In this document: positions 77 through 6,291 of the stretch, piece after piece
Position numbering within the stretch: position 1 is the first letter of the stretch
How the letters are laid out: every line of letters begins with the position of its first letter
Source of the DNA: Zygotorulaspora mrakii
Taxonomy: Eukaryota > Ascomycota > Saccharomycetes > Saccharomycetales > Saccharomycetaceae
NCBI RefSeq assembly: GCF_013402915.1
Contig: NC_050725.1
Location: 682,001-746,000 of the forward strand
Length of the DNA stretch: 64,000 bases
Direction of reading: 5' to 3'
Program-made: the position numbers and the translations under genes
The notes under the pieces: generated by a model
Told to the model about the DNA's origin: nothing
The model's database searches: none
Seen by the model: the letters and a program-made list of their open reading frames with translations, nothing else

Positions 77-1480
77 TTAATCAAATTTAATTTTCTTTCC
101 TTCAAATTTGGCATTCATCTGCTTTTCTTCGGCTTTCTTCTTCGCAACCCATGATGGATGTTCAGGCTGTAGTTTAGGTGCTGCTGGTGTATTGTAAGTT
201 CTCTGGAAATTTACTTGTTCCACCTCTTTCGCAGCTCTTTTTGCAACTCTTTCTTCATACTCTTGTTGTCTTCTCTTCCTGTCATCCATATCTTTCTGTA
301 CTTCCCTTTGGACGTGTTTAGCTGCCCTTCCATATTTCTTTTCCCATATTTTCTGTCTCGCTCTTTGACCACGTCTATTCTTTTTCTTTTCGACTAGAGA
401 TATCTGTTCCCTAGCGATTTTATCTTCCGCAGGATCAGACTCATCGTCAGAATCAGCTCCACTATAATATCCTGCCATTAACTCTGGTAATTCAGTTTTT
501 TGCTTCTTCTTTTTTGGCATCTCTGCATCATCTTTTTCCTCCTCATAGTCCAGTTCTTCGACATCATTTTCCTCATCAGGCTCCTCGTCCGTTACCTCAT
601 TATAATTGACATTTGGATCCAGCGTATCTACCTCATCTTCTTCTTCGTCATCTGATGCAGCCAGTAATCCATCGTATCTTTCCAAACTTTCTTCATCCAT
701 TTCATTTTGCTCTAACGCTTGTTGTTCTTCACTCTGTTCAATATCAGGAGGCCCCAACATACCATTGTTACTGCCTTTCATCACCGGTGCATCTTCCATA
801 TCTTCAAATGACTTGGAGTTATTTTTCACTTTCTTTTCCTTCTTAATGGCAAGGAAGACGTCCATCCCCGCGTTAAATCCAGCAAATAGTTCCTTGCATT
901 TCTCGTTATTCATAAAAATACTAACCAACTGATCTGCCTTATCTGTTTTAAGAATGACCTCATTCCAAACCCTACTCGGGTTGAACTTTTGTGTCTTGTC
1001 TTGATGAATTTTCCAAAATGGATGATCTAAAAACCAACCTGGTGTTGGTGTGTTTTTAGACGGACAAAGTCTGGCAACTGAAAGTTTTATGACCTTGGAT
1101 TTGCTAATGAGTTCCACAAACTCTTTCAAGCCGTATTGTGATTCTAATGCTTTGATAACAGTAGTGAAATCTATCTTTGCCTTCTTGGTAGGACGATATT
1201 GTAAAATCTGTTTATGTAAAAAAGACTGTAAATGCCCATCTAAATGATACACTTTTTTACTGAATATTTCAGTTTTTAGTGCATCCAGACTTTTCGACAC
1301 GTCTGTCAATGTCGATTCTGCAAGCAATTTAGCTATTTTTTTGGATGTTTTCTTGGATTTTGCATTGAATATCTTTGTTGTGCTGTTTAGACGTGGTTGA
1401 AACTCATTCAAACTGCCATTGAGATAGTGATACTGGTACTCCAAGTTGTCTAGCTTAAAAATCAAATTATCCTTAGGCAT
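77..1480 (-). CDS. BUD22: BUD22 ortholog, nucleolar small-subunit ribosome biogenesis factor
   Basis: The 467-residue protein matches the Bud22/SRFB1 family, which acts in the nucleolus in early 18S rRNA processing and 40S assembly; in S. cerevisiae it is about 519 residues. The N-terminal ~200 residues are a basic conserved region. The middle (about 225-350) is a low-complexity acidic stretch with many D/E runs, followed by KKKKQK-type basic patches. The C-terminus carries the family signature, a HPSWVAKKKAEEKQ-like segment running to a terminal GKKIKFD. The start is an ATG at 1480. A perfect PAC-type motif (1553-1561) lies just upstream, as expected for a ribosome-biogenesis gene. The neighbours (snoRNA cluster, SEC59, CLU1) reproduce the YMR012-014 block. 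Identification by family features and synteny is secure. Confidence 0.95.
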   Translation of the reverse strand: MPKDNLIFKLDNLEYQYHYLNGSLNEFQPRLNSTTKIFNAKSKKTSKKIAKLLAESTLTDVSKSLDALKTEIFSKKVYHLDGHLQSFLHKQILQYRPTKKAKIDFTTVIKALESQYGLKEFVELISKSKVIKLSVARLCPSKNTPTPGWFLDHPFWKIHQDKTQKFNPSRVWNEVILKTDKADQLVSIFMNNEKCKELFAGFNAGMDVFLAIKKEKKVKNNSKSFEDMEDAPVMKGSNNGMLGPPDIEQSEEQQALEQNEMDEESLERYDGLLAASDDEEEDEVDTLDPNVNYNEVTDEEPDEENDVEELDYEEEKDDAEMPKKKKQKTELPELMAGYYSGADSDDESDPAEDKIAREQISLVEKKKNRRGQRARQKIWEKKYGRAAKHVQREVQKDMDDRKRRQQEYEERVAKRAAKEVEQVNFQRTYNTPAAPKLQPEHPSWVAKKKAEEKQMNAKFEGKKIKFD

Positions 1481-1973
1481 TCTTACCTGGTATATATTCA
1501 GTATTCTTGCTACACGATCACCCTCACTTGGCTTTAGTTGATGTCAATTTTGGCGATGAGCAGTCATCTTAATGTACTTTGAAATTTTTTTCCGAGTACT
1601 GCTAGTTCTATATGGCGGTGTACGGGTGTTATCATCAGTAAGCACAACGCTCACTACTGATGCTTCAGGTCTCATCACAGAGAGAAGCAACAGCAGAGGA
1701 TGATATCACAGAAGCACTTGTCAAGCTCAAAGCTAGGTGACTGTTCAAATTCACACTTAAATACAAGAATATCCGAAGGAATATTTCACCTAGACATTTC
1801 GTGTCATAAGATAGGTACAGAGAATGGTTACAATAAGTTAAAAAAAATGAGTGTACATGAGCAGAACCGTGGAAACGAAATCGCTGTAAAAGCAGTACAC
1901 TTGACCTCAAGTGTACTAAAGAGAATAGAATATCTTTCAGAGGTCATGGGACAAATGGATATGATAAAGTAGT
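1481..1973. other. Intergenic, BUD22 promoter and downstream end of the snoRNA cluster
   Basis: This holds the BUD22 upstream region with its PAC site. In S. cerevisiae the snoRNA cluster has a seventh member (snR72) on this side. I looked for a guide matching the 25S region around A876 and did not see one. Several isolated C-box-like (TCATCAC at 1672-1678 on +) and D-box-like strings occur, but no convincing snoRNA could be assembled. Confidence 0.5.
1553..1561. promoter_or_regulatory. PAC motif upstream of BUD22
   Basis: GCGATGAGC is an exact match to the core of the PAC element bound by Dot6/Tod6, about 75 bp upstream of the BUD22 ATG. An A/T-rich near-match to the RRPE element (AAATTTTTT, around 1582-1590) sits beside it. 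The PAC+RRPE pair is the known signature of the ribosome-biogenesis regulon. Function is inferred from motif and position. Confidence 0.6.
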
Positions 1974-2082
1974 AGGTATCAGTGCCACGCCCTGTCACAG
2001 GCATAATATCATCAACATTTCCAAATAAACAATAAGGAAATACAGTTGACCGTCGTGAAATTGTGGGATTCATCATAAACAT
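1974..2082 (-). ncRNA. snR73: box C/D snoRNA, snR73 ortholog (25S C2959)
   Basis: On the minus strand a C box ATGATGA (2076-2070), a D' box CTGT (2045-2042), a C' box TTGATGA (2015-2009) and a D box CTGA (1982-1979) follow in order. The plus strand at 2048-2058 reads GACCGTCGTGA, identical to 25S rRNA around C2959, so the RNA is antisense to it. The fifth base from the D' box is the C of GAC, the known snR73 target. The span of about 109 nt agrees with yeast snR73 (~106). The terminal stem is weak, so the ends are approximate. rRNA numbering is from memory, cross-checked by counting from known modified sites. Confidence 0.88.
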
Positions 2083-2144
2083 GACCGTAATAATTCCATT
2101 TGAATCATGACTGGAGCTCTTGAAATATTCGTTTCTCTATAAAT

Positions 2145-2246
2145 AATTCCATCAGACACTGTTAACTCTATCTGACATACTGGGATAAACCCATTCAGAC
2201 ATATGCTTGTCTAAATCGAGAAAACTGTTTCATCTTCTGTAGAATT
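2145..2246 (-). ncRNA. snR74: box C/D snoRNA, snR74 ortholog (18S A28)
   Basis: A D' box CTGA (2198-2195) is preceded by a guide antisense to CATATGCTTGTCT (plus strand 2200-2212), which is the 5' region of 18S rRNA. The fifth paired base from the box is A28, the snR74 target. A C-like box AAGATGA is at 2236-2230 and a D box CTGA at 2155-2152. The ends can pair as AATTC (2246-2242) with GAATT (2149-2145), giving a terminal stem. The C box departs from the RTGATGA consensus at its second base, so the precise box assignment is less sure than the target. Confidence 0.85.
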
Positions 2247-2389
2247 GCCTCTATCTTTCCCAGCGAATGTTAGTCCTTGTGATATTATGACACCTGAGAA
2301 TTCGGCCAGTGTCATCTTCTGATAACAAACTGCAGATCTTTCTGAGTCACTGTTTGTCTCGAAATTTGTATTCACTAAATGAACATGTG

Positions 2390-2480
2390 GATTTTCAGAA
2401 AGGCATGAATGGTATATTTTGTAATGTTTTGTCTTCACTAAATGTTCAGACTCGTCATCTATACTGTATCATCACTAAAC
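2390..2480 (-). ncRNA. snR75: box C/D snoRNA, snR75 ortholog (25S G2288)
   Basis: A perfect C box GTGATGA (2475-2469), a D' box CTGA (2449-2446) and a D box CTGA (2398-2395) are present. The D' guide is antisense to CTCGTCATCTA (plus strand 2451-2461) of 25S rRNA, and the fifth base is G2288, the snR75 target. The length of about 90 nt fits the yeast RNA (~89). Next to the D box, the plus strand at 2403-2412 reads GCATGAATGG, which is also in 25S about 20 nt beyond the first target (see findings). Confidence 0.9.
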
Positions 2481-2559
2481 TCGTTGCACAAATACAAACT
2501 CCATTCAAACAAAGCGACTCGAGATAAATCGTATTCTCAGGTGAAATCTCTTCACTCTC

Positions 2560-2664
2560 TCACAATGAATCAGTAGCGTGGGTTTTCTAGGCCCACTCAA
2601 AAGCATTGTCACTCATTCAATTTTTATCAGTGCCCAGTGCTGTTACTCGTCATCTTCATTGTAA
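2560..2664 (-). ncRNA. snR76: box C/D snoRNA, snR76 ortholog (25S C2197)
   Basis: A C-like box AAGATGA (2656-2650), a D' box CTGA (2630-2627) and a D box CTGA (2573-2570) are present. The guide is antisense to TGCCCAGTGCT (plus strand 2631-2641), a 25S segment in which the fifth base from the box is C2197. A six-base terminal stem, ACAATG (2662-2657) with CATTGT (2567-2562), closes the RNA directly at the C box. About 105 nt, close to the yeast length. Confidence 0.88.
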
Positions 2665-2785
2665 ATAAAAATCTTTTCCTGAGGAAAAAAATTTGAAAAC
2701 GACTGTTTCCAAATCCATGTTTTTCCCTAGAGAAGATATCATTAATGAATAATTGAGTTTCCATACAAATGGAAAAAAGTAATAC

Positions 2786-2873
2786 AAAGTCAGATATAGT
2801 GCAAAAACGTATCAACATATACTCGTTCAGCCAGTAATTCCAGCTTTTGTTTTTGTTTTAATCATCATTTTAA
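2786..2873 (-). ncRNA. snR77: box C/D snoRNA, snR77 ortholog (18S U578)
   Basis: A perfect C box ATGATGA (2868-2862), a D' box CTGA (2830-2827), a C'-like TTGATAC and a D box CTGA (2793-2790) are present. The guide is antisense to GTAATTCCAGCT (plus strand 2834-2845) in the 530-loop region of 18S rRNA, and the fifth base is U578. The length of about 88 nt equals that of yeast snR77. Confidence 0.9.
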
Positions 2874-2999
2874 GACCATTTTTTCCAAATAAGATAGAAA
2901 CCCTGAGGATAATACAAGGACAAAACAAATTATTGAAGTTCTCCTGGACTTCAGTTTTGGCAATGCTAGGAATGACCTTGCTAAAACCAATACATTCGT

Positions 3000-3086
3000 T
3001 ACCCTCAGTGAGATATGCATGATCGGTGTTCTAATCACTAAAATTCAGAAACTCTAGTTTGTATTGTTTTATCATGGTCATCAGCG
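3000..3086 (-). ncRNA. snR78: box C/D snoRNA, snR78 ortholog (25S U2421)
   Basis: A D' box CTGA (3048-3045) is preceded by a guide antisense to ACTCTAGTTTG (plus strand 3051-3061) of 25S rRNA, putting U2421 at the fifth position. A D box CTGA lies at 3008-3005. The C box is either ATGATAA (3075-3069) or CTGATGA (3084-3078). Length is about 87 nt, as in yeast. It is the 5'-most member of the cluster, nearest SEC59, the same order as in S. cerevisiae. Confidence 0.87.
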
Positions 3087-3336
3087 GAAACGTGAAGTGT
3101 ATTGATTTTTTTGCCGAATAACTATGTGAATAATTTCTTTTGTACTTGAATATCCTACAGAGTCCATGTAGTCACATTTATACATGTCTCACCATGGTAT
3201 CTATTCATGTTTTTAGAAGTTACATGACACAACCACGAAAGAGTTACGAATCTTCGTCCTTTATATATGGTTTTTTCATCAGTTTTTTCAAAAAATTTTC
3301 TGGTCAATTCGCTTTGAAAAATTCTGCGGTATTACA

Positions 3337-3344
3337 TTAGGGCT
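3337..3344 (-). promoter_or_regulatory. Tbf1-type site upstream of the snoRNA cluster
   Basis: AGCCCTAA on the minus strand matches the Tbf1 consensus ARCCCTAA exactly. It lies about 250 bp upstream of snR78, with a TATATA sequence in between (about 3258-3265). Tbf1 is a known activator of yeast snoRNA genes, so this is the likely promoter of a polycistronic snoRNA precursor. Function is inferred. Confidence 0.5.
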
Positions 3345-4669
3345 TTTAGTTAGTGTGTGGGTTTAATTTCGTACGTTGAAGACGCATTTCGTAAAGTCAT
3401 ACTTCATTTTGGAGATATTGAGCTTGCTTCTTGCAGTTGTCCGTGTGATATTCCCGACTTTTCAACGAATAGAGCACTACTTCGTGACCGTACTATCTAA
3501 CCACCCAGTATTCGTCAGAAACCACGGAGTTGTGTTTTATTAAAATTGTCCGTGTTACATAAGTACCCACTCTTTGTCAGGAATTTGAGACTCTGAATCG
3601 GACTGTTTCTCCGAATTCTCCTTGTCTGCTATAGCTGGATATGCTTGGCTTACTCTGCTGTATATTCTGCGGCTTTAGGGCAAGAATATTCCCTTTTGTC
3701 GAAACAGTGGTTGAACCAGAATCAAAGCCAGTTATTTTGCCCTCCTTGTGAGCTGAGAATAGAACTCTGGTTGCAGATAAATCGTTAGCACCTCATAGAT
3801 AACTAACGTCGGACACTGCTTATTTACCTTGCTAGTCAGTTTGCTTATACCCTTGACTGTTGTAGGAAGTAGCTTATGAAAATCCCGTGCCTCAGTTTCA
3901 CACGTCTCTGTCAGTGTAATGACACTGATAAAGCTATGTGCAGGTAAAAGCCAGTCAGGAAATTATTTCAGTGTCACATTTTTGCGCTTACACCGTAGTT
4001 GAAGGATGGGAATTCTGACTGTCGAGTTACAGACATCACTGAAGCTTACCAATGCGAATATCGTTCTCTATTCTGCTGAGATTACCTTTTTTTAGCAATG
4101 AAGAATGAAATCATTCAGTATCGATTTTCATCATGCTATCATCACGGTTGATCCAAGGACTGTCTCCCTTGCGTAATTTAACGTCTTGTCGTTTCTGTAG
4201 ATGGAAGTAATTGGTGTACTTTGGTGTGAATGCGAACTCAGATCCGACTTGCTCGAAGTCCACTGCGACACTCCTTTTCCATTAACCAATAGCCTTGGCG
4301 CGTACTTAAAAATGGCAGAGTCTCTACGTATTTTTAGCTTGAGAGCTTTGATTTACATTCTCTCATGTAGTTGATCAACATTCCCACTGTGTTGCAGAAT
4401 GTTAAAACATCATTCGTTCCCACCAAGATGATAGTCTACTCTCTCGTCTCGGAAAGCTCAGTAAATGAGCGTCATTCACACTTCAATAGCAGACATACCT
4501 TCAGCTTGCCTCTATCTCACAAACTCGGACACGGTACGTGAGTATTCTGCTTAAGTTCCTTCTAAACTTCGGCGGCAAAGATTTTAAGCGAAGCAGTTTG
4601 TTATAGCCCGGGTAACACATATAAAAACCGCGCTGCGTTGACACGAACCTGCAAGGAATTGTATTTGAA
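3345..4669. other. Gene-poor intergenic region between snoRNA cluster promoter and SEC59
   Basis: About 1.3 kb with no open frame of note, no recognisable tRNA, LTR or centromere elements, and stops in all frames. It must contain the SEC59 promoter, including a Reb1-type site at 4608-4615. The rest is unexplained; it could hold an unrecognised non-coding RNA or a decayed gene. Confidence 0.4.
4608..4615 (+). promoter_or_regulatory. Reb1-type site in the SEC59 promoter
   Basis: CCGGGTAA is an exact Reb1 consensus, about 140 bp upstream of the SEC59 ATG, a typical position for this nucleosome-clearing factor. Confidence 0.5.
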
Positions 4670-4873
4670 ATGGATCTTATCGATTGTTCATTTAATTGGA
4701 ATCAGCCGCCTTCAATGCAATCAGGTCCTAGCGTGAAATTGAAGTGTTATTTATGTCAAGACGAAGAGGTGGTTATTCGGGCACTGCAGGCGCAGCTCGT
4801 ACCGCTGCAAAGGAAGAACAGAGTAAATCCGAACCACAAGAAACCCAACCCAAGGATAATTACTCCGCACTAG
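4670..4873 (+). other. Upstream ORF overlapping the SEC59 start out of frame
   Basis: An ATG at 4670 opens a 67-codon frame that runs past the SEC59 ATG (4753) in a different frame and ends within SEC59 at 4873. The encoded peptide has no recognised domain. If the mRNA leader includes 4670, this would act as an overlapping uORF. The TSS is unknown, so the uORF may also lie outside the transcript. Confidence 0.3.
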
Positions 4874-6291
4874 ATGAACTATTGGCTCCTGATGTGATCG
4901 TTCAGCTGTTCATACTATGTATATCGATTCATTTTGCGTTTGCGAAGTATGGTGGCTTTCAGGGTCCTTTCTTCCTACACTTTCAAAATTGTGCTATTAT
5001 TGTAATAGCAATACTTGTGAGCGCATACTCAAAATATAAGTCGAGCGGTTACAATCCGGGAACGCTGCCAAAGTTCCAAGTATTCTACTCATTTTATTTA
5101 CCCTTCATGCTTTCGCTTTTGTTCAACGAGCGATTGACGCTAGTTAATAGCGCTTTGGTGCTAAATATCGTTGAGATCCCATTACCGTTCCGGATTCCAA
5201 TGCAGTGGATGCTCATTCAACTGCAGGCACCGGAGGACTCCCCTAAAGCACCTATTCAGAGTTTTTTGGCAATCATAATTAACTACGTGTTTTCTATCGT
5301 GCTTGCCAAGATCAGTCATTTGAAAAGCCTTGACAACGTGGATTGCAGTTTGTTCAGTATTTTACTAACTGATGTGCTGTTTTTGATTCAATCGGATTCC
5401 ATCTATTTTCAAGTCTTAAAAAATACACTTTTGGCATTTTTAATAGTTGTCAGTTTCAATTACGTGATGTCCTTTCTTTTAAGTTCATTTTCCGATGGAT
5501 ATATGAGGTCAATTATGTTGTTCACAAGTTTTGTGGCTGGAACACCATTCATTATCAAGAAACTACTAATCATTGACGAAAAGGATCCGTTGGATTGGCT
5601 TTTGGACTACATATCGGGCTCCAAAACTCGGATAACAATTCTATCAACGTGGTTAATTTCGCTTTTCGTTTTAGTTCCAAATATTTTGATCTTCAAATCC
5701 AACTTTTCTTTGAACACATCGAGAAAAGTTTGGCACTTTTTGATATTATTGCTGATAAGTAAGCCATTTTTAATGGACCCTGAATTCGTGAAGATTTCTT
5801 TGGCTGGTACAATTGTTTTGTTTTTGACTGTCGAGTACCTCAGATATTTGAAGCTTCAACCATTCGGCGAATATCTCGATGCAAGACTAAGACTCTTTTC
5901 TGATTTTCGTGATGATAAAGGTCCAATAATCATTTCATACATTTATCTGATAATTGGCGTTACCGCACCATTATTGATAGCCAACTCGCCAGTTGGACTA
6001 ATCAGTCTCGGTGTAGGTGATTCATTGGCTTCCATTATTGGCGGGAAATGGGGTAAACGTTATTGGCCAGGAACAACAAAGACTGTTGAAGGAACGTTAG
6101 CATTTGTCGTAAGTACGTCTGCGACAATGTATTTCTTCAAAGAAAATCTTGGCTATTTTAACGGTATCTCTCATACAAATTTGTGTATTGTATGTCTGCT
6201 GAGCGGTTTACTTGAAGGAAATAGTACTCTGAACGACAATATACTGATTCCTGCATTTATGTTGATCATTGAAAGGCTACTGTGTGAATAA
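4753..6291 (+). CDS. SEC59: Dolichol kinase (Sec59)
   Basis: A 512-residue polytopic ER membrane protein. It phosphorylates dolichol with CTP, supplying dolichyl phosphate for N-glycosylation, O-mannosylation and GPI anchors. The C-terminal half carries the CTP-transferase region: KVWHF near residue 320, then EYLRYLKLQPFGEYLDARL, a D-rich FRDDKGP segment, GVGDSLASIIGGKWGK and TKTVEGTLAF, all shared with yeast Sec59; LEGNSTLNDNILIPAFM is near the end. Many hydrophobic segments precede it. The frame is open from a GTG at 4744, but an in-frame stop lies at 4729 and the first ATG is at 4753, which I take as the start. Length matches S. cerevisiae (519). Convergent with CLU1. Confidence 0.95.
   Translation: MSRRRGGYSGTAGAARTAAKEEQSKSEPQETQPKDNYSALDELLAPDVIVQLFILCISIHFAFAKYGGFQGPFFLHFQNCAIIVIAILVSAYSKYKSSGYNPGTLPKFQVFYSFYLPFMLSLLFNERLTLVNSALVLNIVEIPLPFRIPMQWMLIQLQAPEDSPKAPIQSFLAIIINYVFSIVLAKISHLKSLDNVDCSLFSILLTDVLFLIQSDSIYFQVLKNTLLAFLIVVSFNYVMSFLLSSFSDGYMRSIMLFTSFVAGTPFIIKKLLIIDEKDPLDWLLDYISGSKTRITILSTWLISLFVLVPNILIFKSNFSLNTSRKVWHFLILLLISKPFLMDPEFVKISLAGTIVLFLTVEYLRYLKLQPFGEYLDARLRLFSDFRDDKGPIIISYIYLIIGVTAPLLIANSPVGLISLGVGDSLASIIGGKWGKRYWPGTTKTVEGTLAFVVSTSATMYFFKENLGYFNGISHTNLCIVCLLSGLLEGNSTLNDNILIPAFMLIIERLLCE

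Follow-up and report, generated by a model that had tools for sequence, protein, structure and literature searches.

The intergenic interval at 1974..3086 of the analysed window, a 64-kb stretch of DNA from the yeast Zygotorulaspora mrakii, is almost certainly orthologous to the snR72-snR78 cluster of S. cerevisiae; six of the seven box C/D RNAs can be recognised in it, and they would arise from one RNA polymerase II transcript through Rnt1 cuts and would guide rRNA methylation. As judged from its sequence, it is an orthologous copy, in another yeast, of a classic, long-known snoRNA cluster, which was reportedly described in S. cerevisiae by Qu et al. in 1999 and has been under study since then. 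In the 5' to 3' direction of the minus strand, the six genes follow each other in the order snR78, snR77, snR76, snR75, snR74 and snR73, all on the same strand (Table 1). The locus adds six RNA genes which would escape an annotation of proteins alone, and it shows that the cluster and its neighbours are retained in a yeast close to Zygosaccharomyces and Torulaspora.

Table 1. Features of the cluster and its surroundings, in window coordinates; guide targets are given in S. cerevisiae numbering.
Feature	Position	Strand	Details
BUD22	77..1480	-	PF09073, E 6.2e-68; downstream of cluster, same strand
PAC word GCGATGAG	1553-1560	+	BUD22 upstream region
RRPE-like word AAAAATTT	1582-1589	-	BUD22 upstream region
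Rap1-type full word ACACCCGTACACC	1617-1629	-	BUD22 upstream region; sole copy in window
Hairpin, AGGU tetraloop, perfect 11 bp	1893..1918	-	-14.3 kcal/mol; immediately 3' of snR73; likely Rnt1 site
snR73 box C/D RNA	1977..2080	-	RF01207, 101.2 bits (cut-off 37), E 1.1e-15; D' CTGT 2045-2042; guide to 25S C2959
snR74 box C/D RNA, approximate ends	2150..2240	-	C box AAGATGA (degenerate) 2236-2230; D' CTGA 2198-2195; D CTGA 2155-2152; guide to 18S A28
Hairpin, AGAA tetraloop	2301..2336	-	-9.0 kcal/mol; snR75-snR74 spacer; likely Rnt1 site
snR75 box C/D RNA	2393..2477	-	RF01185, 65.9 bits (cut-off 40), E 3.6e-11; D' CTGA 2449-2446; guide to 25S G2288
snR76 box C/D RNA	2566..2658	-	RF01209, 97.9 bits (cut-off 55), E 1.2e-21; D' CTGA 2630-2627; guide to 25S C2197
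Hairpin, AGUC tetraloop, 12 bp	2689..2716	-	-9.5 kcal/mol; snR77-snR76 spacer; likely Rnt1 site
snR77 box C/D RNA	2788..2872	-	RF01181, 99.7 bits (cut-off 50), E 2.2e-13; D' CTGA 2830-2827; guide to 18S U578 (U577 here)
snR78 box C/D RNA	3003..3088	-	RF01176, 82.2 bits (cut-off 48), E 9.5e-12; D' CTGA 3048-3045; guide to 25S U2421
Possible TATA box TATATAAA	3260..3267	-	About 170 nt upstream of snR78; second such word 3175-3182
Possible Tbf1 site AGCCCTAA	3337..3344	-	Upstream of snR78
SEC59 (dolichol kinase)	4753..6291	+	Named homologues; upstream of cluster, divergent

A preliminary description of this DNA had proposed a snoRNA cluster at this place. Five Rfam gathering matches and six guides with the modified base at position 5 confirm it, and the identity, strand, order and targets given there for snR73 to snR78 hold. 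The scan of all 64 kb with curated gathering cut-offs returned the five snoRNA matches as the sole Rfam gathering hits of the window (E values from 3.6e-11 to 1.2e-21). The covariance models, which had been suggested as a check, thus placed snR73, snR75, snR76, snR77 and snR78 well above their cut-offs on the minus strand and left snR74 unmatched, so that family identity within cluster I is given by gathering score for five of the seven RNAs and, for the sixth, snR74, by guide and place alone. In the alignments, the C and D boxes and the guide stretches of the five Rfam members match the family consensus, the C box of snR76 being a variant, and the D' box of snR73 has the non-standard form CUGU. 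A search of the genome (10.45 Mb in 9 contigs) with the snR73 model gave a single match, at the cluster, among the 50 of 1169 first-look candidates that were scored. Within the joint reading of the locus, the identity of the RNAs, their order, guides and box spacing are its directly legible parts.

Guide function was assessed at every D-like box in the window (at most one mismatch; 3328 on the minus and 3208 on the plus strand) by setting the modified base against the fifth base upstream of the box and then measuring the helix running through it. For each target, the cluster guide was the best position-5 match on both strands of the 64 kb. On the readable 18S rRNA of the species itself, the snR74 guide forms 13 pairs, all Watson-Crick, to A28, and the snR77 guide 14 pairs (13 Watson-Crick) to U577, which corresponds to S. 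cerevisiae U578. The 25S stretch of the species reads N, and the four 25S guides were therefore scored on assumed S. cerevisiae letters, giving 12 pairs (11 Watson-Crick) at U2421 for snR78, 11 pairs at C2197 for snR76 and at G2288 for snR75, in both cases all Watson-Crick, and 13 pairs (12 Watson-Crick) at C2959 for snR73. Rival boxes in the window reached helices of at most 9 to 11 pairs on the same targets, and 7 to 9 when the best were chosen by Watson-Crick pairs. These 25S letters were checked by hand and carry the expected type of base at the positions of the published table; the stretch around A876, relevant to snR72 below, is less sure, as one neighbouring table site fits only with a one-base gap. 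The six bases are exactly those given in an S. cerevisiae target table (PMC8307265).

The earlier claim that the modified base is the fifth from a D or D' box was thus borne out for all six guides, on the species' own 18S for two and on assumed S. cerevisiae 25S letters for four. A guide length of 11-13 bases applies to five of the RNAs and is exceeded by snR77 with its 14 pairs, and pairing with the species' own rRNA stands for snR74 and snR77, whereas the four 25S guides pair with the assumed S. cerevisiae stretches. In the 1426 readable bases of 18S, no further targets were found: only the two known sites reach 10 Watson-Crick pairs, together with the snR77 guide in a shifted register, which would address U581 through a CTGG box. 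A second rDNA end is present at the tip of contig C6 (L005 1-679); compared with the copy on C4, its 683 aligned 18S bases show no substitutions and six gap openings, which looks like an assembly error and not like a divergent gene. As to function in S. cerevisiae, one study describes no clear change in mRNA levels in a strain without SNR72-SNR78 and no stable, reproducible rRNA hybrids for snR78 (PMC6171561).

The snR74 gene calls for separate consideration. No Rfam model matches it even at E<=10, and a genome search with RF00086 (SNORD27) found nothing at the cluster and, elsewhere, sub-threshold matches at chance level (best E 0.8, under a permissive cut-off of 10). In a 2012 paper snR74 is filed under RF00086 and snR72 is given no Rfam family (PMC3511168), so that Rfam models do not decide on either RNA. 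This missing Rfam support at the locus and the weak C box would suit the view that the stretch is a chance match and that a different RNA, encoded elsewhere in the genome, guides 18S A28; such a coincidence is, however, very unlikely, since a helix of 13 Watson-Crick pairs next to a perfect CTGA puts A28 at position 5, the second longest helix of the window comprises 9 pairs (5 Watson-Crick) with no other exceeding 7 Watson-Crick pairs, the locus is exactly where snR74 is expected, and the matches to RF00086 elsewhere are sub-threshold. By sequence, then, snR74 is identified through its 13-bp guide to A28 of the species' own 18S and its place between snR75 and snR73.

The six RNAs are probably transcribed as a single polycistronic precursor. 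In the proposed mechanism, RNA polymerase II would begin a single transcript close to the TATA and AGCCCTAA elements that precede snR78. Rnt1, an RNase III enzyme, would cleave this precursor at spacer stems capped by AGNN loops, after which exonucleases would shorten each RNA to the C/D core. Within the snoRNP, the guide would pair with rRNA and the methylase would place a 2'-O-methyl group opposite the fifth guide position, the predicted methylated bases being A28 and U578 of 18S and C2197, G2288, U2421 and C2959 of 25S. The single transcript, the Rnt1 cleavage and the actual methylation are the inferred parts of the joint reading.

Putative processing signals were found in some of the spacers. 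Among AGNN hairpins with a strength of at least -9 kcal/mol, three lie on the minus strand of 1481-3400, whose plus strand has none, compared with 20 in the whole window (12 minus, 8 plus). They occupy two of the five inter-RNA spacers and a position after snR73, the last being, of all tetraloop hairpins on the intergenic minus strand, the most stable. In the snR76-snR75 and snR74-snR73 spacers no AGNN stem satisfies the scan rule; in the snR78-snR77 spacer an AGGA stem can be seen by eye which fails the rule through a mismatch beside the loop, and upstream of snR78 there is a weak AGNN hairpin (-3.1). As some spacers have no rule-passing AGNN stem, the Rnt1 model is supported at some of the cuts, not at all of them. 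The AGNN loop is named as the Rnt1 signal in PMC13183374, and an Rnt1-type N-terminal domain (PF18497) is encoded in an open frame of 514 aa elsewhere in the genome.

Candidate promoter words lie upstream of snR78. Within the intergenic region the word ARCCCTAA, a possible Tbf1 site, occurs as a single copy (0.21 expected in 3272 nt, both strands; seven copies in the window). TATA-like words are common, with 49 in the window, and those on the intergenic minus strand are all upstream of snR78. TATA boxes, Rap1 and Tbf1 are the elements named for yeast snoRNA promoters in PMC7277114. In a second snoRNA cluster of the same genome, cluster II, ARCCCTAA is absent from 3 kb, which weighs against the Tbf1-type word being a general rule.

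Alternatively, the RNAs could lie in introns and be freed through splicing and debranching, the route taken in filamentous fungi and Candida. This arrangement is reported for Euascomycetes, Basidiomycota and most other Hemiascomycetes studied (PMC3596301, PMC5033589), with the exception of S. cerevisiae and yeasts closely related to it, whose cluster RNAs are described as deriving from unspliced transcripts (PMC3596301). A word GACTAAC at 2275, between snR75 and snR74, and a GTATGT inside snR74 could be read in its favour. However, the branch point word TACTAAC is absent from the 3272 nt of intergenic minus strand, and the sole two copies of GTATGT there, at 4498 and, inside snR74, at 2180, are not placed to serve GACTAAC; a raw count of branch-like words with one mismatch gives five in the 3272 nt. 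With no TACTAAC and just two GTATGT, splicing is unlikely and an intronic origin highly improbable. The absence of TACTAAC together with the AGNN hairpins in some spacers makes one polymerase II precursor cut by Rnt1 the likely mechanism.

The seventh member, snR72, stands after snR73 in S. cerevisiae (PMC3596301) and has 25S A876 as its target (PMC8307265). The corresponding region between snR73 and BUD22 (1481-1976) comprises 496 nt, long enough for snR72, and no snoRNA could be recognised in it. In 1481-3400, no D-like box yields more than 7 pairs (5 Watson-Crick) with A876 of the assumed S. cerevisiae stretch at position 5, and free complementarity to the A876 stretch in 1481-1976 does not exceed 7 Watson-Crick pairs among runs of at least 8. 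Over the whole window, the best helices with A876 were one of 12 pairs, six of them G-U, on the plus strand within SEC59, and one of 9 pairs with 7 Watson-Crick. A C/D-like pair at 1570/1501 (73 nt) was rejected as snR72: the search yielded no target for this pair, which sits ahead of BUD22 beside the PAC and RRPE words.

The search for snR72 was extended to the genome with guide patterns. Pattern GCTTTACCTCAT had two sites against one for the reversed control, and both were rejected as snR72, being in a long open frame or without a C box. Pattern TTTACCTCN{0,6}CTGA had 23 sites against 15 in the control, 22 of which were read; a C-like hexamer with one mismatch stands within 90 nt upstream in six of these 22 and an exact one in none, and the remaining site shares its 16 letters with a repeat located close to contig ends. 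That 16-letter word, TTTACCTCAAAACTGA, occurs within about 5 kb of the ends of contigs C1, C4 (both ends) and C6 (L009, L018, L028, G000:C6:1245778) in surroundings that are similar at the three places read, and is probably a subtelomeric repeat. Pattern GCTTTACCN{2,8}CTGA had 11 sites against six in the control, all of which were read. Across these three partly overlapping patterns, none of the sites read (2 of 2, 22 of 23 and 11 of 11) resembles a box C/D RNA. A fourth pattern including a C box, RTGATGAN{45,75}TTTACCTC, had two sites in the genome against five in the control, neither of them among the TTTACCTCN{0,6}CTGA sites with CTGA close behind.

At three of 28 distinct sites, at least 8 pairs form with A876 at position 5. 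Sites L017 and L023 were rejected as snR72, as they are inside open frames of 390 and 133 codons, as was L012, which has a C-like word and a 5-pair stem but is in a frame of 649 codons and fails position 5. The best evidence against a loss of snR72 is a non-coding minus-strand site on contig C2 (G000:C2:1261738-1261754; L014 = L034), where GCTTTACCTCCACCTGA, beside CTGA, forms 11 pairs (10 Watson-Crick) with the assumed S. cerevisiae stretch and puts A876 at position 5. It lies about 250 nt upstream of an open frame that looks like TSR1 and about 1.1 kb from snR34 (RF01254, 124.8 bits). No C-like word with fewer than two mismatches is found there, the terminal stem has two of five pairs and the D box is inside a predicted hairpin; given these features the site is judged to be probably a chance match.

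Loss or strong divergence of snR72 is plausible, with the reservation that the target letters are assumed S. cerevisiae ones, from which the species' own 25S could differ. That snR72, and 25S Am876 with it, was lost outright from an otherwise intact, unspliced cluster, as a natural deletion of one rRNA methylation, is a tentative reading that we place somewhat below an even chance, the C2 site having lowered our estimate slightly. In other fungi, snR72 has been lost from the cluster or moved (PMC3596301, PMC5033589). If snR72 were indeed gone, the ribosomes of related yeasts with and without Am876 would constitute a modest natural experiment. That the whole locus is a decayed, untranscribed relic, as the missing snR72 and the degenerate C box and lacking Rfam match of snR74 might suggest, is extremely unlikely, since each of the six guides is preserved and places its target precisely at position 5, the C/D boxes of the five Rfam members fit the family consensus (with a variant C box in snR76) and the sole genome match to snR73 among the scored candidates is at the cluster.

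The flanks of the cluster fit the S. cerevisiae locus as well. BUD22 and SEC59, named as neighbours in the preliminary description, were recovered through PF09073 and through dolichol kinase homologues, respectively. Homologues of SEC59 include Zygosaccharomyces and Torulaspora dolichol kinases with 53-56% identity and another relative with 69%, and two are named as similar to YMR013C SEC59; the SEC59 frame has no Pfam hit, and a comparison of BUD22 with the PDB gave no match. The next gene after SEC59 is CLU1-like, and the S. cerevisiae cluster has the same neighbours (BUD22, SEC59 and the CLU1-like gene). The Rap1-type, RRPE-like and PAC words before BUD22 are what would be expected for a ribosome-biogenesis gene. 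Between the putative cluster promoter and SEC59 lie about 1.35 kb (3400-4752); there is no Rfam match above cut-off in 3400-4752 and, apart from SEC59, no stop-to-stop frame of more than 82 codons in 3300-4760.

In comparison with known systems, the locus is closest to the S. cerevisiae snR72-snR78 cluster (cluster I), with which it shares the six RNAs, their order, strand and guide targets, the flanking genes, the lack of introns and RNase III-type stems between RNAs; it differs in that snR72 was not found and that the stems are recognised in some spacers only. Cluster I of Candida species and Pezizomycotina contains the same RNA families in the same order and, in several of the species, is likewise without snR72, but these clusters are intronic and spliced, (PMC5033589, PMC3596301, PMC2780460), whereas no TACTAAC is seen on the intergenic minus strand here. 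In N. crassa, CD5 is reported to join the functions of snR72 and snR78, while no D-like box in 1481-3400 of the present window has more than 7 pairs to the assumed A876 stretch. Within the same genome, cluster II (snR57-snR55-snR61; L002 1500-2015, contig C1) comprises other RNAs at another place, without the ARCCCTAA word seen upstream of snR78, and is likewise an intact known cluster, with three Rfam gathering hits on one strand.
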